Assembly: GCF_011067135.1 (NCBI RefSeq)
Contig: NZ_JAAMOW010000001.1
Location: 124,001-188,000 of the forward strand
Direction of reading: 5' to 3'
From: Solimonas terrae
GTDB lineage: Bacteria > Pseudomonadota > Gammaproteobacteria > Nevskiales > Nevskiaceae
DNA length: 64,000 bases
Shown here: positions 10,911 through 61,090 of the stretch, in pieces
Position numbering within the stretch: the stretch's first letter is position 1
Layout: every line of letters begins with the position of its first letter
Position numbers and translations under genes: made by a program
The notes under the pieces: generated by a model
What the model was told of the DNA's origin: nothing
The model's database searches: none
Seen by the model: only the letters and a program-made list of their open reading frames with translations

Positions 10911-10919
10911 GCGACATGA

Positions 10920-10960: not shown

Positions 10961-10961
10961 G

Positions 10962-10999
10962 TTGAAATCGTCATGCGTATTTGTAAGTATGTCAGGACA
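10962..10999 (+). promoter_or_regulatory. Putative promoter and third operator before the MFS/iol genes
   Basis: TTGAAA (10962-10967), 17-base spacer, weak -10 AAGTAT (10985-10990). The palindrome TGTC-AG-GACA (10990-10999) starts on the last base of that -10, exactly as copy 2 does at the receptor promoter. TTGTAAGTATGTC here matches TTGTCAGTATGTC at 8380 in all but one base. The repeated sequence and geometry argue for one shared regulator. Confidence 0.5.
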
Positions 11000-11039
11000 A
11001 AGTGTCGCCACGGCAATTCCGGGCGGCGTGGGAGGAACA

Positions 11040-12338: not shown

Positions 12339-12341
12339 AAC

Positions 12342-13175: not shown

Positions 13176-13177
13176 GT

Positions 13178-13972: not shown

Positions 13973-13985
13973 GAACGAGTCGGCA

Positions 13986-15932: not shown

Positions 15933-15936
15933 GCCG

Positions 15937-16860: not shown

Positions 16861-16870
16861 GGGACGCGAC

Positions 16871-18811: not shown

Positions 18812-18843
18812 GCCATCCATCAGTCCATGAGCATCGACATTCC

Positions 18844-19854: not shown

Positions 19855-19867
19855 GCGGAGCATCGTC

Positions 19868-20665: not shown

Positions 20666-20775
20666 AGCTGTACGTCGTGCGATGGCCGGCATGACGACGG
20701 GACCGGTCCGGACGGTCCGGATGCCTGCGGTCCGTCATGGAAATCCGGGAACACAAAATTTAAGGAGAAATGGCG

Positions 20776-24531: not shown

Positions 24532-26979
24532 TCAGAACTCCAGGCTGAGCCGCATCGTCAGGGTGCGCGGCGGAATCAGGTTGTAGGTCCTGAAATCGCC
24601 GACCGGAACGACAGGTCCGACCACCGCTCCCGAGTTCGGGCGGGCCACGTCCAGGATGTTGCTGAGATTGATCGCCAGCTTCGGGCTGAGGAACAGGGCC
24701 TCGCTGCCCAGGATCAGGCCGGCATCCCAGGTTCCGTAGCCGTTGATGTCGATGTCGTGCTGGATGTTGCTGTAGCCCTTGCTGACATAGTTGTAGCCGG
24801 TGTTGATCTCGACTTCGAAGTTGCCGATCGGCCGCAGATATTGCATCGATGCGTTGTACTGCTGCGGCGCGGTGCCCGGCATTTCCTGCCCCGATTCGAT
24901 CTGCACGTTGCCGGAAGCCGTGAACGGCGCAGTGATGTAGGCGTCGGTCAGTGCGCCGGTCAGCGACACGCTGAAGCCGCGCAGGGGCGTGTTCCAGACC
25001 ACGGCCGATTCCAGACCGCGGCTGATGGCGCCGGACACATTGTCGTTGTAGCCGAGCGGAATGCCTTGCGTGCTCTGCGAAATGATCGGGTTCTTGTAGC
25101 GGATGTAGAACGCGGTGAGATCGGCGGTAAGCGTGCGATGCAGCCAGCTCGTCCGCAAACCGATCTCGTGGTTCCAGAGCGTGTCCGACTTGAAGGTCGG
25201 CGGCACACCGTTGGTCGGTGTCGACGGCGTGACCTGGATGCCGCCGAAGCGGAAGCCCTTGGCCACCTGCAGATAGACCGAAATGTCGTCGCTGAATTCG
25301 TAGGTTGCGGTGAACTTCGGATTGATTCCGTGCTCGGTGAGCCGGGCCCGGCTGTCGGCATCCATGCCGTTGTTCTCGGCCCGGACCAGCAGGCCGGTGC
25401 CGATGAAGCCGCCGGCCACGGCGGTCTGGTAGAGGCGCGCGCCGGCGCTCAGCTTGAGGTGATCCCAGAGCGTGTAGCTGAGGTCGGCGAACAAGGCCTT
25501 CTCGGTCGACTTCACATGCGAGGTGCCGTCGAGCAGGCCGGTGTCGTCGTAGAGCGTTCCGATCGGCAGGCCGAGATTCGCGGCAAGCTGATAGAGCGGA
25601 CTGTCCGGCCCGATCAGACCCTCGGTCAGCGGATCGATCAGATGGATCCGGTAGTCCATCGTGTAGCGGTAGTAGTAGCCGCCGACCAGCCATTCGAACG
25701 GCGTGCCGTCGGCCGACTGCAGACGCAGCTCCTGTGCGTAGGCGTCCGAGGTCTCGGTGACGACCAGCGGAAATCCGAGCGCGGACGGATAGCCGGCCGG
25801 CGGCGGACCGATGATCGCGTTCGTGCCATCGGCGCTCGCCAGTCCGTCCTTGAACACGCGCGAGGTCAGCGAGACGACCTTGAACGCGTCGAAATCGTGG
25901 TCGACTTCCAGCGAATCCAGTCCGAATTTGTTGTGTGCCGGCACGGGGATGACATTGATGTCCGTCTCGCGCGGTCCGGTCGGACTGTCGACCGAAAAAA
26001 CCGCGTTCGGCGCCGCATAGTCCTGCGACAGGTGCGTGAGTCTGAGTCTCCAGTCGTCCGGCTCCCACGCCAGGATTGCGCGATATTGATTGCCGCCGCC
26101 GTGATCGATGTCCTTCTCGCCGCTGCGGGTATCGTCGATCACGCCGGGATAGTTGTGGCGCACGTAGGCGAGGCGCAGTGCGAGATTGTCATCGGGCAGA
26201 ACCGGAATGTTCACCGCGGCGCCGCCGGTGACCGCGAGCGAGCCGTCGCGCGGCTGTATCGTCTGCGCAAAACCGCGCACCTGCCATTCGCCCTGCACGG
26301 GCTGCTGCAACTCGTAACGGATGGCGCCCGACAGCGCCGCACCGCCGAACAACGTGCCCTGCGGTCCCTTGAGTACCTGCACGCCGGCCAGATCGAAAGC
26401 GCTGAGATCGGGAACGATGCCGCCGAGGTAGGGATCGGAAAACGCGGTATCGCCGATGAAGAAGCCGACGGGCGAGGGCGGTGACGATGACGGCGAGGTG
26501 TCCGTGCTGATGCCGCGGATGCTGAAGTGCGTGAGTCCGGGGCTCGCCTGCGTGACGGTGACGCCCGGCGTGTCCTGAACGAAATCGACCAGATTCAGAT
26601 GGCCGTGATCTTCGAGCGACTGGCCGCTGATCGCGGTGATCGATTCCGGGATGTTGCGAATCGACTCCTTGCGCTTGGTTGCGGTGACGACGATTTCCGG
26701 GATCTGATCCACCGCGACCGGCGCCGGCGTCGACGGAATCGGGGCGGCTTTCTCCGCAAGCGGAATCGTGGCCAGCGGTGCATCGCCCGACGGCGTCGCG
26801 TCCGCCGGCTGATCGACATCCTGCTGGCCGTCGGCCGCCGGCGGCGTGACGGCGGAGGACGCCGCGTTTTCGTCGGGCGTCGCCGGCTGAGCATGCAGCA
26901 CCGTGCTGTCGAAGGCGGCAAGGGAACCGGCCACCGCCAACGCGGAAAGACGGACGACCGTTCTTGTGTCCAGTTGCAT
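24532..26979 (-). CDS. TonB-dependent outer-membrane receptor (TetR-flanked locus)
   Basis: 815 residues. The signal peptide ends near residue 30 (LHAQP). The acidic/Pro-rich linker includes P-L-A-T-I-P-L-A (68-75), and the TonB box P-E-I-V-V-T-A-T-K begins near 94. The plug has R-N-I-P-E-S-I-T-A-I, F-S-I-R-G-I-S and G-P-Q-G-T-L-F-G-G-A-A-L-S-G-A-I-R-Y. The barrel ends L-S-L-E-F with the terminal Phe required for assembly. AGGAGGAGT precedes the start, one of the strongest ribosome sites in the window. It is divergent from a TetR gene with a palindromic operator between, and followed by a serine esterase. Same subfamily as the other four receptors here. Confidence 0.92.
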   Translation of the reverse strand: MQLDTRTVVRLSALAVAGSLAAFDSTVLHAQPATPDENAASSAVTPPAADGQQDVDQPADATPSGDAPLATIPLAEKAAPIPSTPAPVAVDQIPEIVVTATKRKESIRNIPESITAISGQSLEDHGHLNLVDFVQDTPGVTVTQASPGLTHFSIRGISTDTSPSSSPPSPVGFFIGDTAFSDPYLGGIVPDLSAFDLAGVQVLKGPQGTLFGGAALSGAIRYELQQPVQGEWQVRGFAQTIQPRDGSLAVTGGAAVNIPVLPDDNLALRLAYVRHNYPGVIDDTRSGEKDIDHGGGNQYRAILAWEPDDWRLRLTHLSQDYAAPNAVFSVDSPTGPRETDINVIPVPAHNKFGLDSLEVDHDFDAFKVVSLTSRVFKDGLASADGTNAIIGPPPAGYPSALGFPLVVTETSDAYAQELRLQSADGTPFEWLVGGYYYRYTMDYRIHLIDPLTEGLIGPDSPLYQLAANLGLPIGTLYDDTGLLDGTSHVKSTEKALFADLSYTLWDHLKLSAGARLYQTAVAGGFIGTGLLVRAENNGMDADSRARLTEHGINPKFTATYEFSDDISVYLQVAKGFRFGGIQVTPSTPTNGVPPTFKSDTLWNHEIGLRTSWLHRTLTADLTAFYIRYKNPIISQSTQGIPLGYNDNVSGAISRGLESAVVWNTPLRGFSVSLTGALTDAYITAPFTASGNVQIESGQEMPGTAPQQYNASMQYLRPIGNFEVEINTGYNYVSKGYSNIQHDIDINGYGTWDAGLILGSEALFLSPKLAINLSNILDVARPNSGAVVGPVVPVGDFRTYNLIPPRTLTMRLSLEF

Positions 26980-27335
26980 CTGACTCCTCCTCTTGCGTCG
27001 GTACCTTGCAGTTGCACCGCGCTGGTTCGAATATTTTCTGGTTCAGCTGCCGCGCCGCCCGAATGCCATCGGCGCCGCGCTTGAAAACGGTGTGATGCCC
27101 GGCTCCGGATCGCGATCGACCTGTGGCGAAGTCGTCGTGTCCTGCATCGCCCACGCGCACCGCGTCGGCGATGCCGTCTGCGCTCCCCGGCGGTTGTCGA
27201 CGCTGCTTCGTCTCCTCGCGTCGGCTCGCTGGCCGGCGTCATGTTATTCACTCTTTGTTGAATCAACATTATTGGAAGCTCATAATTCCTGTCAACAGCA
27301 GCGGCACTCCGTCGCGCTTCACTTAAGATTCGTCC
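26980..27335. other. Divergent regulatory region between TonB receptor and TetR genes
   Basis: 356 bases without a gene. The part nearest TetR (27241-27300) is sharply AT-rich against the background and carries the palindrome described at 27256. The rest (26990-27230) is ordinary GC-rich sequence in which I see no RNA gene or short coding frame I would defend. Confidence 0.6.
27256..27268. promoter_or_regulatory. TetR-type operator palindrome TGTTGA-A-TCAACA
   Basis: A perfect 13-base dyad with 6-base arms in the AT-rich island between the divergent receptor and TetR genes, 68 bases before the TetR start. Arm length and position fit autoregulation and control of both transcripts by the adjacent TetR protein. 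Confidence 0.6.
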
Positions 27336-28103
27336 ATGACCTTCTACAAAGATAAGCCGATGATTCGGCGCGACATTGCGAAGACGGCGCGCCGTCTGCC
27401 GCGCCCGGCCAAGACCAAGTCCGAACGCCGCGAGGAAGCGATGACGCGCATCCTGGATTCCGCCGAGAAGCTGTTTGCGCAGGACGGTCGCAACGGCGTC
27501 ACCGTGCGGGCGCTGGCCAAGGAGGCGGCGGTCGATCCCGGCCTCGTGCATTACTACTTCGAAAACATGGATGGTGTGTTCCGCGCCGTGTTCCGGCGCA
27601 AGTCGGTGATCGTCAACGCCATCCGCAACGAGGCGATGGATGCTTATCTCGCGGAACATGGCGATGCGCCGACCGTGGACGGCGCCTTCGAGGTCTTCCT
27701 GCGGCCGATGTTCGAGACGATCTGGAAGGACCCGACGTACTGGACCAATTACGTGGCGATCGTCAGCCATGCCAATTCGTCGCCGTTCGGCGGAGCCGAA
27801 GCGATGCGCGAGGCTTTCGATTTCACGGTCGGCCGTTTCATCGACCTGCTGAAGCGGGTGGCGCCACATGTGCCGCCGCAGGAGATCTACTGGTTCTATC
27901 ACCTGATGTCGGGCAGCGTGACACTCACGCTTGCGCAGACCGGACGCATCGACGTCCTGTCCGGCGGCCTTTGCAAATCGACGGACATGAAATCGGCGTT
28001 CGACTCCATGAAGCAGGTCTTCAGCGGCGGATTCGAGACGGTGATGGCGCGGCACGCGAAGACCGCGAAGGTCCGCGCGCCGCGCTCGGTGCGGAAGAAG
28101 TGA
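27336..28103 (+). CDS. TetR-family transcriptional regulator
   Basis: 255 residues. The helix-turn-helix is at about 38-85: A-M-T-R-I-L-D-S-A-E-K-L-F, then V-T-V-R-A-L-A-K-E-A and L-V-H-Y-Y-F-E-N, which is the classic TetR DNA-binding segment. The rest is an all-helical ligand domain. The N-terminus carries about 30 extra basic residues; a later in-frame ATG exists at 27360. It is divergent from a TonB receptor and directly upstream of a type B carboxylesterase. It most likely represses both until the substrate or its acid product is present. Ligand unknown. Confidence 0.9.
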   Translation: MTFYKDKPMIRRDIAKTARRLPRPAKTKSERREEAMTRILDSAEKLFAQDGRNGVTVRALAKEAAVDPGLVHYYFENMDGVFRAVFRRKSVIVNAIRNEAMDAYLAEHGDAPTVDGAFEVFLRPMFETIWKDPTYWTNYVAIVSHANSSPFGGAEAMREAFDFTVGRFIDLLKRVAPHVPPQEIYWFYHLMSGSVTLTLAQTGRIDVLSGGLCKSTDMKSAFDSMKQVFSGGFETVMARHAKTAKVRAPRSVRKK

Positions 28104-28278
28104 CGCGGCCATGGTGACCGTAAACCTGTCTGCCATGCCGGACTGCAGCGCCGATGCGGCTGCGCCCGCGATGCATGCAGTGGCGGGCGGGAGCCTGAAA
28201 CCCGGGAACGCGGCGCGCCGATCGTGGCCATGCGACGCGGCGCAGCGTGCCGGCTGGCGCAAGCTTCTCGACCCGTTC

Positions 28279-29844
28279 GTGGCGCGGCGTTCGCGCAGGC
28301 AGCTGCAGGCACTGATGCTTGCCGCATGTCTGCTGCCGTCCGAAGCATGGGCATCCGCGCCGCTCGCGGGTGCGGCAGGCGACGAGGTTGTCAACAAGGT
28401 GGAGCAGGGCACCATTCGCGGTCAGCGGCTCGACGGGGTCGATCGCTACCTCGGGCTGCCGTTCGCAAAGCCGCCGGTCGGAGCGCTGCGCTGGCAGCCG
28501 CCGCAGGCACCCGATCATTGGGACGGCACTCGCGATGCGAGGCACTTCGGGCCGGCCTGCGCCCAGATCGGCAACTTCTACACCAGCAATCAGGCGGATA
28601 CGTTCGACCGTCCCTACGGCCGGGAAGACTGCCTCTATCTCAACGTCTGGGCGCCGCAGAAGCGCGGTCCTGCGAAGCCGGTCATCGTCTTCATTCATGG
28701 CGGCGGTTCGATCAGCGGCGCCGCGTCGCTGCCCCTGTACGACGGTCGACGACTGGCCACCGAGCTGGACGTCGTGTTCGTCAGCATCAATTACCGGCTC
28801 GGGTTCTTCGGCATCGTCGATCTGCCGGCGCTGAAGACCGGCGATCCGCGCACGGATTCCGGAAGCTTTGCCTTGCTCGATCAGATCAGGGCGCTCGAGT
28901 GGGTGCAGCAGAACATCGCCAGCTTTGGCGGCGACGCAAGCAAGGTCGTCGTCATGGGCCACTCCGCGGGCTGCACCAGCATCTGGAACCTGATGAGTTC
29001 GCCGCTGGCAAGCGGCAAGTTCGGGAAGGTGGTCTGTCTGTCCGGCATGCCGCGGCAAAGCAGCGACGAGGAGCGGTCTGCTTCCAGCAAGAAGCTGCTC
29101 GCGCATCTGCTGTTGTCCGACGGGCGCATCGCATCCGAAGACCAGGCCGATGCCTATCTGCGGACGACCAGCCCCGCCGCGTTGCGAACGTATCTCTACG
29201 CGAAGCCCGCTTCGGACATCGTGATCGCGGCCAGGGGCGTTCGGCCGGTGCGCGAACGTGTCGACGGCCATGTCCTGACCGCCGGCAAGGACGGGCCGCT
29301 GGTCAATCCGGTGCCCGCCATCCTCGGCACGACCCGCGATGAAGCGCAGTTGCTGCTGATCAGCCACTTCGGCCCCCGCGACTTCGGCGCGATGTGGAAG
29401 CTGATGCAGTCGCCGAAAGCCCTCACCGAGAGCGACTTCTTCGCAAGCCGCATCGACAGGATCGAATTCAAGCTGACGTCCTGGGTCGTCAATCGCGTCC
29501 TTCACCGGTATCTCGACCGCGCGACCCGGCTGCTGGCCGCCACGTCGGTGCCGGTCTATCGCTACGAATTCGAGTGGGACCACAGTCCCGAGCCCTGGCG
29601 GTCGCTGCTGGGCGCGTACCACGGAATCGATGTCTCGTTCCTGTTCGGCAACTTCAGCACCGACGCGCCCGACTTCGCGAGCTTTGCCTGGCGCGGCCGC
29701 GATCCCGGCGAACTGGAGCGCGTTCACCGCGAGATGGTTGCAGCGCTCCGTGGATTCATCGACGCCGACGACCCGGATCGGTATGAGCCCGATCTGCGCT
29801 GGCAGCGCTGGTCCGGGCCGGACAACGACAAGATTTTCCGCTGA
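28279..29844 (+). CDS. Type B carboxylesterase, exported
   Basis: About 521 residues from GTG 28279. This start gives a clean signal peptide (RRSRRQLQALMLAACLLPSEAWA, written here as its basic start and hydrophobic core followed by A-W-A). The open frame extends to ATG 28111, but that would leave the signal sequence buried 56 residues inside, so the upstream start is less likely. Neither start has a good ribosome site. Family marks: D-R-Y-L-G-L-P-F-A-K-P-P, E-D-C-L-Y-L-N-V-W, oxyanion H-G-G-G-S, nucleophile G-H-S-A-G, and His in Y-H-G-I-D-V-S-F-L-F-G. Periplasmic ester hydrolysis, probably controlled by the TetR gene just upstream. Confidence 0.87.
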   Translation: MARRSRRQLQALMLAACLLPSEAWASAPLAGAAGDEVVNKVEQGTIRGQRLDGVDRYLGLPFAKPPVGALRWQPPQAPDHWDGTRDARHFGPACAQIGNFYTSNQADTFDRPYGREDCLYLNVWAPQKRGPAKPVIVFIHGGGSISGAASLPLYDGRRLATELDVVFVSINYRLGFFGIVDLPALKTGDPRTDSGSFALLDQIRALEWVQQNIASFGGDASKVVVMGHSAGCTSIWNLMSSPLASGKFGKVVCLSGMPRQSSDEERSASSKKLLAHLLLSDGRIASEDQADAYLRTTSPAALRTYLYAKPASDIVIAARGVRPVRERVDGHVLTAGKDGPLVNPVPAILGTTRDEAQLLLISHFGPRDFGAMWKLMQSPKALTESDFFASRIDRIEFKLTSWVVNRVLHRYLDRATRLLAATSVPVYRYEFEWDHSPEPWRSLLGAYHGIDVSFLFGNFSTDAPDFASFAWRGRDPGELERVHREMVAALRGFIDADDPDRYEPDLRWQRWSGPDNDKIFR

Positions 29845-29904: not shown

Positions 29905-31551
29905 TCAGGTTCGTGAAGGCTCGCCGGCGGCAGGATCGCGGGCCAGCGAGCTGTAGCGCTCGCGCAGCAGTTTCTTGTCGATCTTGCCGGTCGCGGTCAA
30001 TGGCACATCGGCAAAGACAACGTCGTCCGGCAGCCACCATCTGGCGACGCGCGGTGCCATGAACGCCAGTACCGCATCGCGCGTCAGCGCGGCGTCCGGC
30101 AGGGCTTCGATGACCAGCACCGGGCGTTCGTCCCATTTCGGATGGGGTACGCCGATCACGCCGGCGAACTTCACGCCGGGGCAGCCGGCAGCAACATTCT
30201 CCAGGTCGATGGAACTGATCCACTCGCCGCCGGACTTGATCACGTCCTTCTTGCGATCCGTGATGCGCAGGAATCCGTCCTCGTCGAGCGTGGCGACATC
30301 GCCGGTATCGAACCAGCCGTCGCGATCGGTCGCGTCTTCGTCCCGAAGGTAGTAGCGCTGCACGACCCAGGGACCGCGTACCTGGAGCGCACCTGAGGAG
30401 ACGCCGTCCTGCGGCACTTCGTTTCCGGATTCGTCGACGCAGCGAATCTCGATGCCGAATTGCAGACGTCCCTGACGAGTCCAGATGATGTCCCGCATTT
30501 GCTCGTCGCCGCGGGCCGCCAGAGAAGGCGTCGGTGTGGCGACGACGCCGAGCGGACAAGTCTCGGTCATGCCCCAGATCTGCAGGACCTCGACGCCGTA
30601 TCGCGCGTGAAAGGTTTCCGCCATCACGCGTGGCACCGCCGAGCCGCCGATCGTGAGCCGCTTCAGCGCGCCCGGCGTCGCGCCGTGTTTCTCCAGCCAG
30701 TTCAGGTACGCGGTCCAGATCGTCGGCACGCCCCCGGTGAAGGTGACGCCCTCGCTGACGATGAGCTCGTGCAGGCTGGCGGCATCCATCCTGTCGCCGG
30801 GCAGCACGAACTTCGCGCCGCAGATCAGCGTCGCGAACGGCAGGCCCCAGGCCGTGGCGTGATACAGCGACGAGCACGGCATGATCACGTCGAAGGCGGT
30901 GAAGCCGAACGCGGACGCCAGACTTTCCGCCATCGCGTGCAGGACGATCGCGCGATGGCTGTAGAGCACGCCTTTGGGATGGCCGGTGGTGCCGGAGGTG
31001 TAGCAGAGGATCGCGCCTGCGTTCTCGTCGAATGACGGCCAGGCATGCACGCCGGACTCGGCCGCGATCAGGGCTTCGTAGCAGAGCGCATCCAGGCCGC
31101 CGCCGTCGTGACGCTCGATGTCGGTGAGCATCACGAAGGTCTTGATGCGACGCAGCTGTGGCGCGATGCGCTGCACCAGCGGCAGCAGATTGCGATCGAA
31201 CAGCAGGATCGTGCTGTCGGCGTGCTCGAGCGTGTAGACGATCTGCTCGTCGTGCAAGCGCGGATTGGCGGTATGCAGGACCGCGCCCAGGCCCGGCACC
31301 GCATAGAACAGTTCAAGGTGGCGATGGGTGTTCCAGGCCAGCGAACTGACCGTGTCACCGGCGTTCACGCCGAGCCGCTGCAGTGCCTGTGCGGCCTTGC
31401 GCGCGCGCAGGCCGAGGCCGGCGAAGTCGTAACGCCAAAGCGGCTCGTCGACCAGACGCGAAACGATTTCGCGACGCCCGTGGGCGCGCTCCGCGAAGCT
31501 CAGTATCGACGGGATCGACAACGGGGTGGCTTGCATCTGGCCGGCTTTCAT
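29905..31551 (-). CDS. Fatty-acyl-CoA synthetase (AMP-forming)
   Basis: 548 residues of the ANL superfamily. The P-loop-like A3 motif Y-T-S-G-T-T-G-H-P-K-G is near residue 190, A5 is W-G-M-T-E-T, A8 includes D-R-K-K-D-V-I-K-S-G-G-E-W-I-S, and the catalytic Lys is in T-G-K-I-D-K-K near the C-terminus. The N-terminus M-Q-A-T-P-L resembles medium/long-chain fatty-acid ligases. ATG 31551 was chosen over 31536; neither has a perfect ribosome site. It is the last gene of the trehalose operon and would activate the acid freed by the three esterases for beta-oxidation. Chain length not readable. Confidence 0.9.
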   Translation of the reverse strand: MKAGQMQATPLSIPSILSFAERAHGRREIVSRLVDEPLWRYDFAGLGLRARKAAQALQRLGVNAGDTVSSLAWNTHRHLELFYAVPGLGAVLHTANPRLHDEQIVYTLEHADSTILLFDRNLLPLVQRIAPQLRRIKTFVMLTDIERHDGGGLDALCYEALIAAESGVHAWPSFDENAGAILCYTSGTTGHPKGVLYSHRAIVLHAMAESLASAFGFTAFDVIMPCSSLYHATAWGLPFATLICGAKFVLPGDRMDAASLHELIVSEGVTFTGGVPTIWTAYLNWLEKHGATPGALKRLTIGGSAVPRVMAETFHARYGVEVLQIWGMTETCPLGVVATPTPSLAARGDEQMRDIIWTRQGRLQFGIEIRCVDESGNEVPQDGVSSGALQVRGPWVVQRYYLRDEDATDRDGWFDTGDVATLDEDGFLRITDRKKDVIKSGGEWISSIDLENVAAGCPGVKFAGVIGVPHPKWDERPVLVIEALPDAALTRDAVLAFMAPRVARWWLPDDVVFADVPLTATGKIDKKLLRERYSSLARDPAAGEPSRT

Positions 31552-31607
31552 CAGTCGTGTCTCTCGGTTGGCTGGGGGCGCTGCCGTCGCGGCGTTGCGG
31601 TGCCGGC

Positions 31608-32564
31608 TCAGCGCGCCAGACCGGCGATCGCGCGGGCGATCTCGGCGATGCCATCGGCGGCCGACGCGCAGATGCGCGGCATGAAGAAGAAGCCGTGCGG
31701 CATGCCCTCGTAGTTGACGTACTTCGCGTGCACGCCGGCTTCGGCCAGCTTGCGCGCATAGCGCGCACCGTCGTCGCGCAGCGGATCGATGTCGGCGGTC
31801 AGGATCAGCGCCGGCGGCAGGGCCGACAGGTTTTCCGCGAACATCGGCGACAGCAAGGGATCGGTCAGTTCGGCCGCGCCGCGATACAGATCCATGAGGC
31901 GATGCGCGTTGTCCTTTTCCAGACCGGGCTGGTCGATGTTCCAGGATTCCGACGCCAGCGTGGCATCCAGCGCCGGATAGATCAGGGTCTGGTGCCTGAT
32001 CACGGTGTCGCCGCGCCGCGCACGCAGCACGCACAGTGCCGCAGCGAGGTTGCCGCCGGCGCTTTCACCCATGACGGCGATGCCGGCGGCCGGCATGGCG
32101 CCCAGGGACTCGGCGCCGGCCAGCCAGCCGAGCGCGTCATCGCAATCCTCGAGCCCGCCGGGAAACGGCGTTTCGGGCGCCAGCCGATATTCGACCGACA
32201 CGATCAGGCACCGTGCCTGCTGGCTGACGGCCGCGCAGAGGTAGTCGAGCGTTTCGAGCCCGCCATGGATCCAGCCGCCGCCGTGCAGGAACAGCACGCG
32301 CGGGCAGCGCGGATTCAGATTCGCAGGAACGTATTGCTTGATGGCGATCGGCCCGGCGCGGCCGGGAATCGTCTCGTACGTGGTGCGGACATCCGCTGGC
32401 GCTGCCAGCGTGGTCCATCCCGGCGCGCGCATGGCCTTGCGCACGGCAAGCGGTTGCGAGACCGCCTTTTCCGGCGTGATGCCGAGGCCCAGGCTGCGCA
32501 CCAGCCGGTGTATCCCGTACATCAAGCGCAGGCGCCGGCCCTTGAGCTTCGTGTTCCGTTTCAT
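31608..32564 (-). CDS. HSL-family esterase (trehalose operon, third copy)
   Basis: 318 residues. Oxyanion H-G-G-G-W, nucleophile G-E-S-A-G-G, acid in A-D-I-D-P-L-R-D-D-G, and His in G-M-P-H-G-F form a complete family IV triad. The basic N-terminal segment (KRNTKLKGRRLRL) followed by a short hydrophobic stretch resembles that of the esterase at 36996, so the two are probably paralogues. AGGGGGAA lies about seven bases before ATG 32564. It lies 71 bases after the TonB receptor stop and 56 bases before the acyl-CoA ligase. Probably deacylates the imported glycolipid or a partly deacylated intermediate. Confidence 0.9.
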   Translation of the reverse strand: MKRNTKLKGRRLRLMYGIHRLVRSLGLGITPEKAVSQPLAVRKAMRAPGWTTLAAPADVRTTYETIPGRAGPIAIKQYVPANLNPRCPRVLFLHGGGWIHGGLETLDYLCAAVSQQARCLIVSVEYRLAPETPFPGGLEDCDDALGWLAGAESLGAMPAAGIAVMGESAGGNLAAALCVLRARRGDTVIRHQTLIYPALDATLASESWNIDQPGLEKDNAHRLMDLYRGAAELTDPLLSPMFAENLSALPPALILTADIDPLRDDGARYARKLAEAGVHAKYVNYEGMPHGFFFMPRICASAADGIAEIARAIAGLAR

Positions 32565-32635
32565 GCCGGTTTCCCCCTGCTGGCTGCGGTGCGAGCGGCA
32601 GCTTTCATCGAAATGTTCATCGCGTTCACCACGCC

Positions 32636-35164
32636 TCAGTCGCCGAAGCGACCCATGAGGCGAATGCCGATCGCCCGCGGCGTGATGTAGTAATACTCCT
32701 CGGCGGCGAGCGCCGGCGACGGAACGCCGGACGTGAAGGCGTTGGTGATGCCCCGCTCGTCGGTGAGATTGTTGACGATCAGCGCGATCTCCGGCAGCCA
32801 CTCGATGCGCGCGTTGGCGACGCTGAACTGAAGATCGAGCTGGTGGTAGCCGAAGATCTTGTGGGCACCGAACGTCGGCACGGTCTTGCCGATCGTGGTG
32901 TATGTGGCATAACCGCCCAGAAGCCAGTCGCCCGCCGGCTGCAGGAACGACAAGGTCGACGCGGTCTGCCACTTCGGTGCCAGTGGCCAGTTCGTGCCGC
33001 TCGGGTAGATGTCGCCGGCTGCGGTCGTGAACGGCTTCGTCGTCACGGTGTCGGCGTACGACACGGAGTTGGTCAATCTCAGGCCGGCCCAGGGAAACAG
33101 GTACTGCAGCGACAAGTCGGCGCCCTTGCTGCGTACACCGCCGACGTTGTCGATGTAGACCGAAAGGCCCGACGCGTCCGGCTGCAGGCTTTGCGGGTTC
33201 TTCCAGTCGACGAGAAAGCCGGTCAGATCCAGGCGCAGGGTGTTGTGGAGGAACTGGGTGCGAATGCCCGCTTCATAGTTCCACAGCGTGTCCGACTTGA
33301 AGGTTTCCGGTGCGGCGCTGCGGCCGAACGACGAGGTCAGGCCGGTCTGGATGCCGCCGACGCGAAAACCTTTCGACACCAGGCCGTAGGTGAGAATGTC
33401 GTCGTTGAGGTGCCAGACGATCGATGCCTTCGGGTTGAAGCCCTGCTGTTTCACTTCACCGTCGATCACGTAAGGCGAGCTGCCCTGCTGGGCCAGCACA
33501 TAGACGCCGGACTGCGCGTTCTGACCGCCGGATTGCGTACGGTACAGGCGTCCGCCCAGCGAAAGCTCGACGCTGTCACCGAGGCGGCGGGTCAGTTCGC
33601 CGAAGGCCGCCAACTCGCGAATGCGTACGTCGCCGACGGTCTGCAGGACCACGGGTGAGCCGCTGCCGTTGAACAGCGAGCTGAGCGGGCCGAGGTTCAG
33701 GGCGTCGATGATGGTCGCCAACGGCGTCACGTCGACCGCCAGTGGCACGGACAGGGTGTTCTTGACGTCCTGCTGCCAGCCGAAGATGCCGGTGACCCAC
33801 TTCCAGCGCTTCTGCGGATCGTCGACCGACACCAGGCGGAATTCCTGGCCGACGGTGCTGGAGTCGCCGGCGTAGTACTGCGCGGTCAGCGACAATGCGC
33901 CGTTGCCGGTGATGCGCGAACTGGCGTCGAAGAAGTTGTGGCCACCCTTGTCGATGTACGAGGTATCGGAAACGAACTGTGCCCAGTCGCCGTTCCAGGT
34001 CACCGCCAGATCGGCCATCGAGTACTGCGTGTGGTTCGGACTGGCACGCGGACGATCGTTGGTTTCGAGGCGGCCCTGGTCGTTGTCGGCAATGCCGACA
34101 TCGCGCAAATCCGTCTCCTGCCAGGCGGTCGTCAGCAGGATGTCCCAGGCATCGCCCGGTCGCCAGCCGAGCAGCGCACGTGCGCCCTTCTGGTCGGTGC
34201 GGTTGACGTCCTTCTTGCCGGTGCGCAGGTTGTCGATATAGCCCGGGCTGTCACGATCGAACGCCATCACGCGCAGTGCCAGCGTGTCACCGAACGGCAG
34301 GTTCACCGCCGCACCATAGCTGGGGCCGGCGTCGCCTTCGTGGATCGAGGTGTACTGGCCGAACCATTTCAGTTCGTACTCGCCGAATTTCGGCGGGGTT
34401 GGTACGTAACGCACCGCGCCGTTCAGTGCGGAGGCGCCGAACAGCGTGCCCTGCGGACCCTTGAGGACCTCCACCGAGCCCATGTCGAACGGATTCGGAT
34501 CGAGCGAGACGACCGGCGCCCAGGCCTCGGTGAACGAGACGTTGCCGAACAGGATGCCGGTCGTCGAGCTGGTCCCGATGTCCGACGAAATGCCTCGCAG
34601 CGTCACCCGTTGCGGGCTGTCGCCGGTCGAGGTGACGTTGGCGCCGGGCACGAGCTTGACGATGTCGGCCGTGTCTTGTGCGCCGCGCCGTTCCAGGTCT
34701 TCGCCGGACAGCACCGCGATGCTGGCCGGAATGTCGCGCACGTTCTCGGAACGCTTGGTGGCCGTGACGATGACCTCGGCGATCTGCGGCGACGATGCCG
34801 TCTGCTCGGTGGCCGGCACCGGCGCAGGCTGCTGCGGCACGGCAATGGTGGGGACAACTTGTGCATCGTCCGCGCTCGGGGCGGTCGACTGTACGGCCTC
34901 GGCGGTTTGCGGTCCGGCGGCAGATGGCGCTTCGGCAGGGTTCATCGTGCCGGCATCACCCGCATCGGCATCGGCATCCGGGGCTGCGGTGCTGTCCTGC
35001 GTGGCCGACGGCTGGGGCGCCCCCTGGGCGGCCGCCAATGGCGGCAGGCTCGCACACAGGAAACTGCCCAGGCCCAGCGCCATCAGGCGTGCAAATCCAC
35101 CCGCGCGGCGAGCATCCTCGCCGGCTGGGGTCAATGGCCGGGTGACGGTAGATTTCTTTGACAC
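32636..35164 (-). CDS. TonB-dependent outer-membrane receptor (trehalose operon)
   Basis: 842 residues from GTG 35164, with GGAGA five bases upstream. A long basic n-region precedes the hydrophobic core of the signal peptide (about 24-46). The longest linker of the five receptors follows (about 48-126), containing V-P-T-I-A-V-P at 104-110. The TonB box is A-E-V-I-V-T-A-T-K (129-137). The plug has R-D-I-P-A-S-I-A-V-L and G-P-Q-G-T-L-F-G-A-S-A-L-N-G-A-V-R-Y. The barrel ends R-F-G-D, so two residues follow the usual C-terminal Phe. It starts 17 bases after the trehalase stop, clearly the same operon; the natural ligand is probably an acylated trehalose. Confidence 0.92.
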   Translation of the reverse strand: MSKKSTVTRPLTPAGEDARRAGGFARLMALGLGSFLCASLPPLAAAQGAPQPSATQDSTAAPDADADAGDAGTMNPAEAPSAAGPQTAEAVQSTAPSADDAQVVPTIAVPQQPAPVPATEQTASSPQIAEVIVTATKRSENVRDIPASIAVLSGEDLERRGAQDTADIVKLVPGANVTSTGDSPQRVTLRGISSDIGTSSTTGILFGNVSFTEAWAPVVSLDPNPFDMGSVEVLKGPQGTLFGASALNGAVRYVPTPPKFGEYELKWFGQYTSIHEGDAGPSYGAAVNLPFGDTLALRVMAFDRDSPGYIDNLRTGKKDVNRTDQKGARALLGWRPGDAWDILLTTAWQETDLRDVGIADNDQGRLETNDRPRASPNHTQYSMADLAVTWNGDWAQFVSDTSYIDKGGHNFFDASSRITGNGALSLTAQYYAGDSSTVGQEFRLVSVDDPQKRWKWVTGIFGWQQDVKNTLSVPLAVDVTPLATIIDALNLGPLSSLFNGSGSPVVLQTVGDVRIRELAAFGELTRRLGDSVELSLGGRLYRTQSGGQNAQSGVYVLAQQGSSPYVIDGEVKQQGFNPKASIVWHLNDDILTYGLVSKGFRVGGIQTGLTSSFGRSAAPETFKSDTLWNYEAGIRTQFLHNTLRLDLTGFLVDWKNPQSLQPDASGLSVYIDNVGGVRSKGADLSLQYLFPWAGLRLTNSVSYADTVTTKPFTTAAGDIYPSGTNWPLAPKWQTASTLSFLQPAGDWLLGGYATYTTIGKTVPTFGAHKIFGYHQLDLQFSVANARIEWLPEIALIVNNLTDERGITNAFTSGVPSPALAAEEYYYITPRAIGIRLMGRFGD

Positions 35165-35181
35165 GATTCTCTCCTCATGAA

Positions 35182-36999
35182 TCAAGATGCGGCCGCTGAC
35201 GCATGGCCGGTATGCGGAGTACTTGGCTCCACGATCGGTTTCAGTGGATGACCGAGGACCTCGGTGGCCATCCACGCAAAGCTGGAATTGGTCCAGAGAA
35301 AGCCTTCCTGGACCGGATACTGGTGACCCTTGCGGACTGGCAGATCGAGGGTCGCGACATTGATGCGCTCGAAAAAACTGCCGTGCTTTGCGAACACCGC
35401 CGTCAGCGCCGCGATCCAGCGTTGCGCGATATCGCGTGCGGCCGCTTCGAAGCCATGGCGCCGCAGGCCGCTGACCGCCATCAGCTGTGCCGGCGCCCAG
35501 CCGTTGTCGCCATCCCACTGCTGAAGTGATTCGAAGCGATTGGAGCCGGCGATGCCGCCGCGCCGCAGCAGCGGCCGGGCGGCCTGCAGGACGCGTTGTG
35601 CCTGGCCGGGCGAGGCGATGCCGGCGAACAGCGGTGCGAAGACAGTGAAGCCGATACCCTGGCTGGGCTGGCGGGTTTCGAGATGAAGGCTGCGGTAGTA
35701 GCCGCCGGCGTCGTCCCAGAGATGACGATCGATCGCCGTGCGACGTTCGGCAGCGAGCCGGGCGTAGCGATGTTGCGGCTCGGCGAGGCCGCCGAATTCG
35801 GCCAGCCACGCGACATCGGCGGCGAACTGCGCGAGCAGCGCATTGAGCATCACCGGCGCGAAGGCCGACATCTCGTTCCGGCCGGAAGCGCCGCTGTACA
35901 GCACCGTGAAATCGAGACCGGATTCCGCCATCGCGCGGACATCGCGCAAGCTCTTGCCGAGCGCGGTTTCGTCGTCTTCGGAATAGCGTTCGGGGCGCTT
36001 CACGTCGAGGGCGTCCCAATGATGATGCAGGCCCGTCGCCGCGTCGTAGCGCGTCTGCGGATCGGACCAGAAATCGAGGAATTCGCTGGCAAGCAGCGGC
36101 ACCGCGCGCTCGCGTACCCAGCGCAGCAGGTTCGCGGAACGTTCGGCATCGCCGTGCCGGCGATACTCGGCGGCGCTGGCAGCGACAACGGTCCGGATCA
36201 GGCGGCTCGACAACGGCGGTTGCGAGCGGCTCAGGTAGTAGTCGCGGTTGCCGTTGGGCACGAAGCCGAAGCGGCGGATCAACTCGAGGAAGTTGTCGGC
36301 CTGCATCTGCGCCAGTTCCAGGCGGCCGGTCGCGATCAGGCCGTCGATGCCGAAAGCCGTGTCCCAGTAATACGCTTCGCGGAAGCGGCCGGCGGGAATC
36401 AGGAACGGGTAGGGCGTGTGCAGCAGCGAACTGCCGCGGGCACCGACACTGGTTTTCACCAGCTTGCCCCATTGGGTTTCGATATGTGCGAAGGCCGCGC
36501 GCATGCCGGCGTCCGGATGCTCGAGCACCCACAACGGCCGCACCCGTTCCGGTTCGATGCCGGCCAGATCGTCCTCCGCCTGATAGGCCGAGGCGAGATA
36601 ACGCTGCAGCAGTTCGCGTCGCGCCGCGAGCCGCTGTTGCGGCGCGATCGTGTTGAGACCGGCGAACGCCGATTGCCAGTGCGCGATCCAGTCGCTGTCG
36701 TGATCACGCCGGTGCAGGTCGGACAATGACTTGAAGTCATCGTGCAGGCGCAGGATGCGCGCTTCCTCGATCAGCGGGCTCGCGAGTCCGGGCGACGGAT
36801 CGGACCGCCCGTTCACCGGGGTCGGCGCGGATCGCGGCAGGTGCAGCTGCGTGGCGGCCGGGACCGACGGATGGCGGACGCGATTGAGCAGGCCCCGGGC
36901 CCAGTCCGCGCGTGCCTGGATCTCGGCGCGATCGGCGGCGCCGAGCACGCCGTCGTCGGCGACGCTCCACTCGAACGCGTGCGCGACATCGACGCTCAC
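35182..36999 (-). CDS. GH37 trehalase (cytoplasmic type), lid loop altered
   Basis: 605 residues. Trehalase signature 1 is P-A-G-R-F-R-E-A-Y-Y-W-D-T (202-214) and signature 2 is Q-W-D-G-D-N-G-W-A-P (494-503). F-V-P-N-G-N-R-D-Y-Y-L-S-R-S-Q-P-P at 246-262 matches E. coli TreA closely. By alignment with TreA from memory, the catalytic acid is Asp363 (S-G-L-D-F) and the base Glu544 (F-F-E-R-I-N-V). The Gly-rich lid (G-G-G-G-G-E-Y in TreA) is replaced here by R-K-G-H-Q-Y (557-561). There is no signal peptide. GTG 36999 overlaps the upstream esterase stop (GTGA). It should cleave trehalose or a close derivative to glucose. Confidence 0.88.
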   Translation of the reverse strand: MSVDVAHAFEWSVADDGVLGAADRAEIQARADWARGLLNRVRHPSVPAATQLHLPRSAPTPVNGRSDPSPGLASPLIEEARILRLHDDFKSLSDLHRRDHDSDWIAHWQSAFAGLNTIAPQQRLAARRELLQRYLASAYQAEDDLAGIEPERVRPLWVLEHPDAGMRAAFAHIETQWGKLVKTSVGARGSSLLHTPYPFLIPAGRFREAYYWDTAFGIDGLIATGRLELAQMQADNFLELIRRFGFVPNGNRDYYLSRSQPPLSSRLIRTVVAASAAEYRRHGDAERSANLLRWVRERAVPLLASEFLDFWSDPQTRYDAATGLHHHWDALDVKRPERYSEDDETALGKSLRDVRAMAESGLDFTVLYSGASGRNEMSAFAPVMLNALLAQFAADVAWLAEFGGLAEPQHRYARLAAERRTAIDRHLWDDAGGYYRSLHLETRQPSQGIGFTVFAPLFAGIASPGQAQRVLQAARPLLRRGGIAGSNRFESLQQWDGDNGWAPAQLMAVSGLRRHGFEAAARDIAQRWIAALTAVFAKHGSFFERINVATLDLPVRKGHQYPVQEGFLWTNSSFAWMATEVLGHPLKPIVEPSTPHTGHASAAAS

Positions 37000-37913
37000 G
37001 CCTGCAGTTCCCCGACCAGCATGTCGATGCACAGCGGCGCGGCCGAGCACAGGCTCGCCAGTGAAAGAAAGGCGTGCGGCATGCCGCGATAATTTTCCAG
37101 GCGTACCGGAATGCCGGCTTCGCGCAGACGATCGGCGTAGCGGAAACCGTCGTCCCGCAGCGGATCGGCGTCGGCCGTGACGATGATGGCAGGCGGAAGT
37201 CCGTCGAGATCCGGGGCAAGCAGCGGCGACACGAATGGATCGTCGATGGCGGCCGCACCGCGGTATTTCTCGATGATCACGGTCGCGTCGCGCCGCGACA
37301 TGCCTTGCCGCGGCGGATCGATCGACGGCGACGCCATGGTCAGATCGAGGAAGGCGTAGATCAGCACTTGGCGGCGGATCACGCCGAGCCCGCGACGACG
37401 CAGGCTCAGGGCCGCCGTCAGGTTGCCGCCGGCACTGTCGCCGACCACATCGACGCAGGGCGATCGGGCCAGCAGGGCGTCGAGCGCATCCTCGCAGTCT
37501 TCCAGTCCCGCCGGAAACGGATGCTCCGGGGCGAGCCGATAGCCGACCGCGGTCACTTCCGTGCCGAGCCGGTCGCAGAGATGAGTGCACAGGTAGTCCA
37601 GCGAATCGACGCCGCCGGCAATCCAGCCACCGCCATGAATGAACAGGATCGGCACCGCGGACGGCTTGCGCGCACGTGGCAGGAATCGCTTGAGGGGAAT
37701 CGCGCCGCCGCGCGCCGGCAGCGTCGAACGCTCGATGCCGACCTCCGGCATCGGCAGCAACATCCAGCTTGCCGGCACGACGGCCGCGCGCCGCTCGATC
37801 GGCATCTTCATCGCCTTCGCCGATGCGCCGCCGAGACCGAGCTTCGACAGCAGATGCGTGAGGTTCATCAGCCAGCGCAGCTTCCAGCCATCGAGTCTTG
37901 CAATCGTTTTCAT
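36996..37913 (-). CDS. HSL-family esterase (trehalose operon, second gene)
   Basis: 305 residues. H-G-G-G-W (oxyanion), G-D-S-A-G-G (nucleophile), A-D-A-D-P-L-R-D-D-G (acid) and G-M-P-H-A-F (His) make a complete triad. The N-terminus (M-K-T-I-A-R-L-D-G-W) continues into M-N-L-T-H-L-L-S-K-L-G, like that of the esterase at 31608, and is not a clear signal peptide. Its stop overlaps the trehalase start by four bases, a strong sign that deacylation and trehalose cleavage are coupled. The ribosome site is weak; reinitiation after the upstream esterase (gap 32 bases) may matter. Confidence 0.9.
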   Translation of the reverse strand: MKTIARLDGWKLRWLMNLTHLLSKLGLGGASAKAMKMPIERRAAVVPASWMLLPMPEVGIERSTLPARGGAIPLKRFLPRARKPSAVPILFIHGGGWIAGGVDSLDYLCTHLCDRLGTEVTAVGYRLAPEHPFPAGLEDCEDALDALLARSPCVDVVGDSAGGNLTAALSLRRRGLGVIRRQVLIYAFLDLTMASPSIDPPRQGMSRRDATVIIEKYRGAAAIDDPFVSPLLAPDLDGLPPAIIVTADADPLRDDGFRYADRLREAGIPVRLENYRGMPHAFLSLASLCSAAPLCIDMLVGELQA

Positions 37914-37945
37914 ATGAGGTCGTGCCTGCAGGTGTACGGGCGGTC

Positions 37946-38941
37946 TCAGCAGACGCCGAGCCGTTGCAGCAGGAATTTTCCGGTCGAGCGGCGGGCAGCG
38001 ACCGCCTCCGGCGATTCGACCGGCTTGAACTGGAACACATGCCAGAGGCCGTCGTGGATCTCCAGTCGTGCGTCGACGCCGGCGTCCAGCATGCGCCGCT
38101 GCAGGCGCACCGCGTCGCTGAGCAGCAGTTCGCGCGTGCCGCACTGGATCAAGGTCGGCAGATAGCCCGCGTGATAGTCCGCGAACAACACCGAAACCAG
38201 TGGATCGGTGAGCGCACTGCTGCCGGCGTAGCAACGCGCGGTGGCGCCGAGGAAGTCGTCCGAGGTGTAGAACGGTTCCGCATCGTGCAGCGTGCGATAG
38301 CTGTCGCCGCTGCACGAGAGATCGGCCCACGGCGACCACAGCACCAGCCCGGCCGGCAGTGGCATGGCCCTGGCGCGTGCACGCAGCATCGCCGAGGCGG
38401 CGATCGCGGCGCCGGCCGAGTCCCCGTAGATGCCGATGTCGCCCGGTGCAAAGCCGTCCGCGTAGAGCGCAGCCAGTACCGCCAGAACCTGCTCGCCGAT
38501 GCGTGCATGATCGGCCTCCGGCGCCAGCGTGTAGTCGACCGACAGGATGCGCAGGCCGGTTTCCTCGGCCAGCGGCAAGGTGCTGTCGAGGGCGTCGTGC
38601 GCGGCGCCGCCGACAAAGCCGCCGCCGTGCGTGTACAGCAGCAGTTTGCCGGCAACGGCACCGCGTGCGGGGCGGATGTCGGTGACCGCGACGCCGCCGA
38701 GGTGCATCTGCCGGATGTCCGGGCGGTAGCGTTCGAGCAGGGCCATGTTCATGGCTTCGCGTTTGCGCAGTTCCTGCCGATTGCGACGCCGCCAGGCGTC
38801 GGTGTCGCTCGCTGCCGGTGCGCGCAGGGCATCGCGTTCCATTCGCGAGAATGTCTCGTGAAAGTAGCGCCGAGCCTCCTCCGACAGATGAGGAGCCGGC
38901 TCTGGAAATCCGGGGACGGCGACAGGGGCGGGATTCAGCAT
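37946..38941 (-). CDS. HSL-family esterase (trehalose operon, first gene)
   Basis: 331 residues. H-G-G-G-F oxyanion, G-D-S-A-G-A-A nucleophile elbow, acid probably in G-T-R-E-L-L-L-S-D, and His in G-L-W-H-V-F. It is more distant from the other two operon esterases and resembles the acetyl-hydrolase branch. The ATG at 38941 has no ribosome site, and the predicted promoter would place the transcript start on the A of this ATG, so the message may be leaderless. An internal ATG (residue 34) is the alternative start. As the promoter-proximal gene it falls directly under the LacI-type operator. Confidence 0.88.
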   Translation of the reverse strand: MLNPAPVAVPGFPEPAPHLSEEARRYFHETFSRMERDALRAPAASDTDAWRRRNRQELRKREAMNMALLERYRPDIRQMHLGGVAVTDIRPARGAVAGKLLLYTHGGGFVGGAAHDALDSTLPLAEETGLRILSVDYTLAPEADHARIGEQVLAVLAALYADGFAPGDIGIYGDSAGAAIAASAMLRARARAMPLPAGLVLWSPWADLSCSGDSYRTLHDAEPFYTSDDFLGATARCYAGSSALTDPLVSVLFADYHAGYLPTLIQCGTRELLLSDAVRLQRRMLDAGVDARLEIHDGLWHVFQFKPVESPEAVAARRSTGKFLLQRLGVC

Positions 38942-38947: not shown

Positions 38948-38976
38948 AATGTAGTCAATTTTGAAATCGATTGCAA
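38948..38976 (-). promoter_or_regulatory. Promoter of the trehalose/esterase operon
   Basis: On the minus strand: -35 TTGCAA (38976-38971), 17-base spacer, -10 TACATT (38953-38948). The predicted start falls at 38941, the A of the first ATG. The operator overlaps the -35 and spacer. Confidence 0.5.
38962..38975. promoter_or_regulatory. LacI-family operator TGAAATCGATTGCA
   Basis: Matches the general LacI/GalR consensus TGNAANCGNTTNCA at every fixed position, with the central CG. It lies between the divergent LacI gene and the esterase/trehalase operon and covers the operon's -35 region, so binding should block transcription. Confidence 0.78.
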
Positions 38977-39154
38977 AGACTGGTAGATTGCATGCCGTTG
39001 ATCCGGCAGGGCAGCGATCGATGACGACAAGTGTGTTGAAATCGGACACCGTCGCGAACCGACTGCGGCGCCGTCCCGGTGCCGCAGCGGGCCTGCGGCC
39101 CGTTGCCGTCATCCCTGAAAGTCCCGGAAGCATCCGCGAATCGGACCCGAGCCC

Positions 39155-40153
39155 TTGAAGAAGAACACTGGCCCCAAGCGGATGGACGACATTGCACGCC
39201 TCGCCGGCGTGTCCAAGCCGACCGTGTCCCGGGCCCTGCAGGACAGTCCGCTGGTATCCGACGAGACCAAGAAGCGGATTCTCGAGATTGCCAGACGACA
39301 CGGCTATGTCGTCAATCGCAACGCGCAGAACCTGCGCCGCCGTCGCACCGACACGATTGCGGTGGTCATCGACTTTCCGCATCTGCCGGACAACCGGCTC
39401 ACCGATCCCTTTCACTTCGAACTGCTCGGCAACATCACGAATGCCCTGGCGGTGCGCCAGCAGGATGTGCTGCTCTGCTCGTCGCAGTCCGCCCATTCCG
39501 GCGGCTTCGAACACCTGCTGTCCAACAAGGGCGTGGACGGCATCATCTTCCTCGGACAAAGCGGGCATCACGAGGAGTTCCGGGCGCTGGCCAGAACCGC
39601 GGTGCCGTTCGTGGTCTGGGGCGCCCATCGTGATGATGCGACGTACTGCGTGCTCGGCAGCGACAATCCGCTGGGCGGACGGCTGGTCGCGGAGCGATTC
39701 CGCAGCCTGAAACGCAAGCGGGCGATGTTCCTCGGGCCGCGCGGCCACATCGAAATCGAACAGCGACACCGGAGCTTTGCCGAGTCCTGGGGCAGGGCGT
39801 TCGAGGAACTCGAAGTGCCGGACCTTTCCTTCGTTGCCAGCCGCGACGCGATGCTCGAACGACTGGACTCGGGAAAGCCCGCGCCGGACGCCGTGTTTGC
39901 CGGCAGCGACACGATGGCCATGGGCGCGCTGGCAGCCCTGCGCGAACGCGGCATCGAGGTGCCGGCGGACTGCAGCGTCTGCGGCTATGACGACAGTCCG
40001 TCCGCCGTCCATCACTCGCCGCCGCTGACCACGATCAGGCAGGACACCCGCATGGCCGGCGCGATTCTCGTCGAGCGTCTGATGCAGGCCATTCAGGGAA
40101 CGCCGGCCGCATCGGTGCTCCTGCCGACCGACCTGATCGTCAGGGCAACCTGA
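39155..40153 (+). CDS. LacI-family transcriptional regulator
   Basis: 332 residues. An N-terminal helix-turn-helix carries M-D-D-I-A-R-L-A-G-V-S-K-P-T-V-S-R-A-L, the signature of the family, with hinge residues near 45-60. A periplasmic-binding-protein-like domain covers about 65-332 (F-A-G-S-D-T-M-A-M-G-A, then V-C-G-Y-D-D). TTG 39155 gives the normal Lys-rich lead before the HTH; ATG 39182 would begin right at the HTH and is the alternative. Neither has a strong ribosome site. It diverges from the trehalose operon and most likely represses it until a sugar inducer (trehalose, its phosphate or an acylated form) binds. Confidence 0.92.
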   Translation: MKKNTGPKRMDDIARLAGVSKPTVSRALQDSPLVSDETKKRILEIARRHGYVVNRNAQNLRRRRTDTIAVVIDFPHLPDNRLTDPFHFELLGNITNALAVRQQDVLLCSSQSAHSGGFEHLLSNKGVDGIIFLGQSGHHEEFRALARTAVPFVVWGAHRDDATYCVLGSDNPLGGRLVAERFRSLKRKRAMFLGPRGHIEIEQRHRSFAESWGRAFEELEVPDLSFVASRDAMLERLDSGKPAPDAVFAGSDTMAMGALAALRERGIEVPADCSVCGYDDSPSAVHHSPPLTTIRQDTRMAGAILVERLMQAIQGTPAASVLLPTDLIVRAT

Positions 40154-43227: not shown

Positions 43228-43277
43228 TTGACAACATCGTTTGTTACGTGCTTAACATACAGACATGCATTGTATGT
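43228..43277 (+). promoter_or_regulatory. Promoter and TetR-type operator before the S9 peptidase gene
   Basis: TTGACA (43228-43233, perfect -35), 19-base spacer, TAACAT (43253-43258). The palindrome ACATACA-N9-TGTATGT (43255-43277) overlaps the -10 and has the self-complementary ATGCAT at its centre. It lies between the divergent TetR and peptidase genes, which fits repression by that TetR protein. Confidence 0.6.
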
Positions 43278-43298
43278 GACAAGCCTCCGGAGAATTTG

Positions 43299-45506: not shown

Positions 45507-45541
45507 GCACGACACGACCACGGCATTCCAGGCTACGGAAC

Positions 45542-57710: not shown

Positions 57711-57748
57711 CACGCATTTCATTCCATGCTTTCACAAAGGCCCATTCG

Positions 57749-61056: not shown

Positions 61057-61090
61057 TGCGGCGATTCCAATCCGCAGCAGGAGTGGTGTG

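Follow-up and report, generated by a model that had tools for sequence, protein, structure and literature searches.

A LacI-linked operon of a TonB receptor, three esterases, a diverged GH37 protein and an acyl-CoA ligase in Solimonas terrae: a candidate utilization locus for acylated trehalose

The closest described counterpart of the operon analyzed here is the sux sucrose locus of Xanthomonas, one of the carbohydrate utilization loci containing a TonB-dependent receptor (CUT loci). As far as the accessible part of its description goes (PMC1790865), this locus combines a TonB receptor, a LacI/GalR-type repressor and an intracellular sugar-splitting enzyme with an inner-membrane sugar transporter. 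In a 64,000-nucleotide stretch of the Solimonas terrae genome (hereafter, the window; C11:124001-188000 of the 4.42-Mb, 20-contig assembly G000), the first three components recur in and beside a six-gene operon, whereas the transporter is matched in relatives of the operon and not in the window copy. The operon adds three esterases and an acyl-CoA ligase, and a diverged protein of glycoside hydrolase family 37 (GH37), here called TRE, takes the place of amylosucrase. A TonB receptor, a regulator and a degradative enzyme, the combination that characterizes CUT loci, are all present, as judged by Pfam matches and synteny. We consider the chances about even (a probability of roughly 0.5) that this is a LacI-repressed, CUT-like utilization locus for an acylated glucoside, most probably for trehalose esters.

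Trehalose esters of actinobacteria carry C8 to C20 chains on C6/C6' or on C2/C3 (PMC4365757, accessible text), and fungal gene clusters are described, in the part of PMC10682982 available, as making trehalose esters of polyketides, from which an alpha-glucosidase yields glucose esters. The glycosidase TreE of fungal treconorin biosynthesis, which according to the same text splits acylated trehalose to a glucose ester, is comparable to TRE in the activity proposed below and is biosynthetic and fungal, unlike the operon. A survey of LacI regulons names TreR and ThuR for trehalose, and the words “esterase” and “TonB” are absent from its main text in the form available (PMC4052901). No catabolic gene system for trehalose esters was found in the titles and abstracts of the top-ranked literature, a set that leaves subscription journals mostly outside.

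The six genes lie on the minus strand between positions 29905 and 38941 in the order EST1, EST2, TRE, TonB receptor, EST3 and AMP-binding ligase, and the Pfam matches of all six products exceed the curated cut-offs. EST1 (37946..38941), EST2 (36996..37913) and EST3 (31608..32564), the last a paralogue of EST2, are HSL-family esterases (PF07859), whose translations contain the nucleophile motifs GDSAG (EST1 and EST2) and GESAG (EST3). TRE (35182..36999; PF01204) and the TonB-dependent receptor (32636..35164; PF07715 and PF00593) both start with GTG, and the last gene encodes an AMP-forming acyl-CoA ligase of the fatty-acid type (ACL; 29905..31551; PF00501, PF13193 and NF004837). A four-base overlap (GTGA, 36999-36996) joins EST2 to TRE, and the remaining intergenic gaps are 32, 17, 71 and 56 bases long. 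The gene for the LacI-family regulator (39155..40153, plus strand; PF00356 and PF13377) is divergent from the operon, and no transporter gene was found between 29905 and 40153. The preliminary description of this stretch, which had listed these six genes in this order and orientation, with the four-base overlap and without an inner-membrane transporter, is borne out on all these points. By eye, a signal peptide is present in the receptor and absent from TRE; as the receptor is the only product with such a peptide, deacylation and glycoside cleavage would be cytoplasmic. Genes were called with a simple custom caller, which, in the window, placed the starts of EST1, LacI and the receptor inside these genes.

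Just upstream of EST1 lies a palindromic LacI-type operator, TTTGCAATCGATTTCAAAA (38959..38977, minus strand), the putative binding site of LacI. A search of both strands of the whole genome with up to 3 mismatches found this 19-mer at a single place and its reversed control at none, so that LacI seems to act only at this operon. The operator is identical in two relatives of the operon, L005 and L006, differs in L111 by one base that makes it a perfect palindrome, and occurs in L043 only in weaker versions with 4 mismatches. As placed by eye, a promoter-like element of EST1 (TTGCAA-17-TACATT; 38948..38976, minus strand) overlaps with the operator, which covers the -35-like hexamer TTGCAA and most of the 17 bases between it and TACATT; the element falls below the threshold of the promoter scan and is therefore absent from the scan output. 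The second hexamer is TACATT in the window and TAGAGT in the others, and the ATG of EST1 follows it by six or seven bases, which suggests that the EST1 transcript is possibly leaderless. Both scans were at chance level, with 1 promoter-like site (for LacI) versus 0.8 expected and 4 terminator-like sites, none of them on the minus strand, versus 4.7 expected. The operon is very probably repressor-controlled.

The operon is a real, conserved unit. LacI and all six genes are syntenic in L005 (Solimonas sp. SE-A11) and L006 (a Solimonas metagenome-assembled genome), with amino acid identities of 68-87% (78% to each for TRE and 86-87% for LacI); the preliminary description had named conserved synteny as a check, and the order does recur in both. 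These two genomes, labelled Nevskiaceae in the output of the GH37 tree, are probably the same as G050 and G049. In both, the receptor and EST3 are separated by a small gene, which Pfam identifies as LuxR-type in L005. None of the neighboring window genes that were compared with L005 and L006 recurs there, except that TBDT_A matches the receptor of the operon as a paralogue. CarbE, a TetR gene and TBDT_A (24532-29844) were rejected as operon members: CarbE is convergent, and CarbE and TBDT_A, the two of these that were compared with L005 and L006, have nothing corresponding to them at this position there.

The 85 genomes of the order include 5 with a TRE orthologue (above 1100 bits), of which one is that of the window, three belong to genus g10 (Solimonas; four genomes in all) and one belongs to genus g12; two further matches, below 260 bits, are ordinary GH37 proteins. 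EST1 orthologues are present in 4 of the 85, and neither TRE nor EST1 has an orthologue in any of the other 10 genomes from the same genus as the window. Among 369 genomes of the class and 398 of the phylum, TRE was found at E values up to 1e-100 in this genome only, in a search that scored at most the best 3 candidates per genome and that remote members would escape. A plasmid search returned 79 records, none with 80% query coverage and all below 60% identity (37% or less among the matches listed, 15 of the 79).

In L005 and L006, the gap left by the missing transporter is filled by a gene for a GPH-type (MFS_2) symporter beside LacI, on the side away from the operon (in L005, Pfam 1.4e-72, with the score under the NCBIfam gph model below its cut-off). 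Beyond it follow, by reading only, glucokinase, 6-phosphogluconolactonase, glucose-6-phosphate dehydrogenase, 6-phosphogluconate dehydratase and 2-keto-3-deoxy-6-phosphogluconate aldolase. The g12 member G056 has LacI (50% identity), TRE (55%) and a GPH symporter (47%) as consecutive genes in L043 (53% GC), with homologues of EST2 and EST3 upstream and a divergent receptor, the gene content being taken from open reading frames. The genome of the window encodes GPH homologues elsewhere, the best of them (50%) at C13:368606; none has the operator (C13:368606 was checked to 3 mismatches), and the homologue at C13:368606 is a possible transporter for the operon.

TRE scores 279.3 bits against the Pfam Trehalase family (PF01204; cut-off, 21). 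Its AlphaFold2 model, built on a 32-row alignment that includes 27 other GH37 proteins, has a pLDDT of 89.4 (a five-row alignment gave 55.2 and was set aside) and the (alpha/alpha)6 fold. The best 25 matches in PDB are all GH37 trehalases, with 5z66 on top (E value, 1.3e-28; TM scores, 0.68/0.79), and identity to the solved enzymes 2jf4, 2jg0 and 5z66 is 25-27% over the Foldseek alignment. TRE thus resembles TreA and TreF in fold, in catalytic acids and in most of the presumed trehalose contacts. The catalytic acids D363 and E544 are kept in all 5 rows of the TRE clade and in all 27 others. All five clade members retain the residues that we take to contact trehalose in E. coli TreA (in TRE numbering, R205, W212, D213, N249, R258, S259, Q260, R335, E337 and G361), the Glu of the lid excepted. 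TRE groups with its four orthologues in a clade (100/100), and a stem measuring 4.6 changes per column separates them from the 27 other GH37 proteins; according to a warning of the tree program, this stem and another long branch may attract.

The ligase exceeds the cut-off of NF004837, a subfamily of long-chain-fatty-acid--CoA ligases (516.5 bits versus 476), while its top score, with the 3-(methylthio)propionyl-CoA ligase model, stays below the cut-off (684.2 of 822). Among solved structures, 6ihk/6ijb and 1ult are the closest to it. The model match favors fatty acids over another possible substrate, an aromatic ester of the feruloyl type, which would agree with the presence of the tannase family in sister GH37 loci.

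The link between GH37 genes and ester chemistry extends beyond the operon. Two of the three other GH37 loci of the genome encode ordinary trehalases together with ester hydrolases and a ligase. L014 contains genes for a tannase family protein, acyl-CoA dehydrogenase, enoyl-CoA hydratase, HSL esterase, GH37 and ligase, with more HSL genes around, and L015 has the series tannase family, MalT-like regulator, ligase, GH37, MFS sugar porter, receptor, S15-family hydrolase and tannase family, an arrangement repeated by L050 in G048. The ester hydrolases and ligases of all three belong to subfamilies other than those of the operon. A neighborhood survey of GH37 genes, which detects only relatives of the reference proteins at an E value of 1e-15, covered 27 canonical loci; ligase and ester hydrolases were found near GH37 in 0 of the 11 loci from other families of the class and in 3 of the 16 from the window's family. 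In this survey, the stretches L052, L085 and L086 are short, and two GH37 fragments of G017 were omitted from it as well as from the alignment and the tree. Seven of the 19 Abhydrolase_3 genes of the genome lie within 8 kb of two of its four GH37 genes (binomial P of ~1e-8), and 5 of the 19 within 5 kb of GH37 genes.

We regard the operon as a catabolic locus for an acylated sugar because of the seven-gene synteny, the genome-unique operator, the GPH and sugar-catabolic neighbors in relatives and the fatty-acid-type ligase. Breakdown of an esterified sugar is likely, trehalose is its probable sugar part, and trehalolipid is a possible substrate. Trehalose esters are favored since the catalytic acids and presumed contacts are kept, sister trehalase-ester loci exist, and natural trehalose esters are known. 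The trehalolipids of rhodococci or mycobacteria named in the preliminary description are one candidate, and fungal trehalose esters, as described in the accessible part of PMC10682982, are another. The earlier idea of a LacI-linked unit for an esterified sugar likewise holds as likely, given the synteny and the esterases and acyl-CoA ligases at two other trehalases; its identification of the sugar enzyme as a trehalase goes too far.

Gene order, conservation, the operator site, the protein families and the divergence of TRE within GH37 are observed; from these we infer the substrates, the localization, the order of the steps and the mode of induction. The TonB receptor would carry the amphiphile across the outer membrane, and its further way inward would be through a GPH-type symporter, whose gene adjoins the locus in Solimonas and g12 but is unlinked or missing in this genome, or by some other route. 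Three cytoplasmic HSL esterases would strip the acyl groups, and TRE, whose rebuilt lid may admit a substituted sugar, would split the glucoside, possibly still partly acylated, to glucose, which would enter the Entner-Doudoroff route through glucokinase. The ligase would convert the freed acids to acyl-CoA for beta-oxidation, and the sugar or a product would free LacI from its one operator.

Several observations weigh against this reading. Of the five GH37 trehalase motifs as printed in the accessible text of PMC10969515, TRE matches motif 3 only, with motifs 1, 2, 4 and 5 altered in comparison with TreA and TreF, and the glycine-rich lid GGGGEYP, which according to that text may matter for substrate identification in GH37, is replaced by VRKGHQYP. 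The Glu of the lid is Q in four and K in one of the five clade members versus E in 25 of the 27 others, the Trp before the catalytic acid is Leu in the clade, and TRE carries an N-terminal extension relative to TreA and TreF. Other GH37 rows likewise deviate from the printed motifs at position 4 of motif 2 and at the final D of motif 5, so that the argument for divergence rests on positions conserved in 25 to 27 of the 27: G203, P498, K545 and Y546, invariant in all 27, are A, D, R and I in TRE, and R367, found in 25, is L. TRE also stays under all three NCBIfam TreA/TreF cut-offs (263.5 of 941, 244.9 of 512 and 200.8 of 560 bits). In view of the motif departures and the lost lid, we call TRE a diverged GH37 protein; “trehalase,” as in the preliminary description, was too strong a name. 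The gene sets of relatives point the same way. On C17 of G056, a LacI-EST1-EST2-receptor-EST3 operon with nearly the same operator (LacI 78%, EST1 72%, EST2 82%, receptor 70% and EST3 69% identical) has neither TRE nor an orthologous ACL and adjoins an inositol-type gene set. In G048, TRE is kept (77-78%) and none of the other operon genes lies around it; directly upstream of the intact TRE gene, at L040:9402-9571, an EST1-like start is fused to the end of an EST2-like gene (its last 29 residues), a junction that marks an internal operon deletion, and EST1 was not found elsewhere in G048 (E values up to 1e-80; best 25 of 33 candidates scored). The sugar enzyme is therefore separable from the ester enzymes, and the earlier statement that the gene set makes sense only if trehalose arrives acylated was an overstatement. 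In addition, the whole-genome operator search revealed no transporter under the operator in this genome. A ligase 81% identical to that of the operon is encoded at L055:2694-4322 (G000 C11) in an unrelated-looking cluster with two acyl-CoA dehydrogenase-like, enoyl-CoA hydratase-like, SDR, GPH and MalT-like genes, so that the acid may be other than a plain fatty acid. L080, one of the 11 control loci from other families of the class, has a weak, 29% HSL-like match, and collapsing tandem esterases leaves 2 of 14 clusters near GH37 genes (P of ~0.05).

These points can be read in other ways. An unlikely but tangible alternative is that the acylated substrate is a glycoside or polyol different from trehalose and that TRE is a GH37 protein of new specificity added to an older LacI-esterase-receptor core. 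The motif and lid changes fixed in the clade along its long stem would fit this, as would the TRE-less core beside the inositol-type set in G056 and the similar set ~10 kb from the operon in the window; the presumed trehalose contacts kept in all five members, apart from the lid Glu, and the canonical trehalases in the sister ester loci argue for trehalose. Ordinary scavenging of free trehalose, with the esterases and ligase as passengers or acting on other esters, appears improbable: L005 and L006 keep the esterases and the ligase in complete synteny, EST2 and TRE overlap by four bases, and the family has three other ligase-esterase-GH37 loci, all of which speaks against it, even though TRE is kept alone in G048 and L045 of G046 is a plain locus of this kind, with receptor, GH37, MFS porter, glucokinase-like and LacI genes beside Entner-Doudoroff-type genes and no esterase or ligase found in the neighborhood survey. 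Quite improbable, in our estimate, is detoxification of a trehalose-ester or other ester-bearing antimicrobial from fungi or actinobacteria. Fungal trehalose esters of polyketides do exist (PMC10682982, in the part available), but the LacI control, the sugar-catabolic neighbors in Solimonas and the fatty-acid-type ligase point to catabolism, and EST3 and EST2 reach only 185.5 and 147.8 bits with the chloramphenicol-hydrolase model, far under its cut-off of 500.

Several additional clusters were seen in the window and elsewhere. Positions 550-6419, with the upstream L056:1746-7531, encode GPH, GH2 beta-mannosidase-like, N-acylglucosamine-2-epimerase family and GDSL lipase proteins behind a receptor, a ligase and a carboxylesterase, a locus that may act on acylated beta-mannosides, for example, mannosylerythritol lipids; L054 is a second locus with GH2, epimerase, GPH, HSL and receptor genes. 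The inositol-type set at 8505-21585 (PfkB+DUF2090, thiamine pyrophosphate enzyme and Gfo/Idh families) comes with a receptor, an MFS protein and two alpha/beta hydrolases. L112 (G000 C13:290000-309900) has MalT-like regulator, receptor, alpha/beta hydrolase, tannase-family, mannitol-dehydrogenase-family, ligase and HSL-like genes; its relative L116, in G048, is without a ligase in the stretch seen. L114 combines GH1 with MFS, receptor and MalT-like genes. Receptor clusters with S9-type peptidase-like, dipeptidase-like and alpha/beta hydrolase-like genes, judged by reading the translations only, occupy positions 43248-48957 and 55284-62827.

Glycolipid surfactants are produced by many soil and surface microbes, and beta-mannoside- and polyol-type sugars are the head groups of mannosylerythritol lipids and liamocins. 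Loci that combine a receptor, esterases and a head-group enzyme would tentatively fit a glycolipid-feeding life. It is conceivable, although we hold it to be speculative, that the genome contains dedicated glycolipid (biosurfactant) loci, each with a TonB receptor, ester hydrolases, often an acyl-CoA ligase, and one head-group enzyme, for trehalose (three GH37 loci), beta-mannosides (GH2 and epimerase family, two loci), a mannitol-type polyol, inositol and a GH1 substrate, and that the TRE clade consists of acyl-trehalose glycosidases whose lid admits the acylated sugar.

With a defined, repressor-controlled operon, the question of whether these bacteria consume trehalose esters would become testable. 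The operon could yield enzymes that deacylate or split acylated trehalose, and the TRE clade is a natural experiment on the role of the trehalase lid and motif residues. A locus of this kind would also help to explain why these bacteria have so many TonB receptors.

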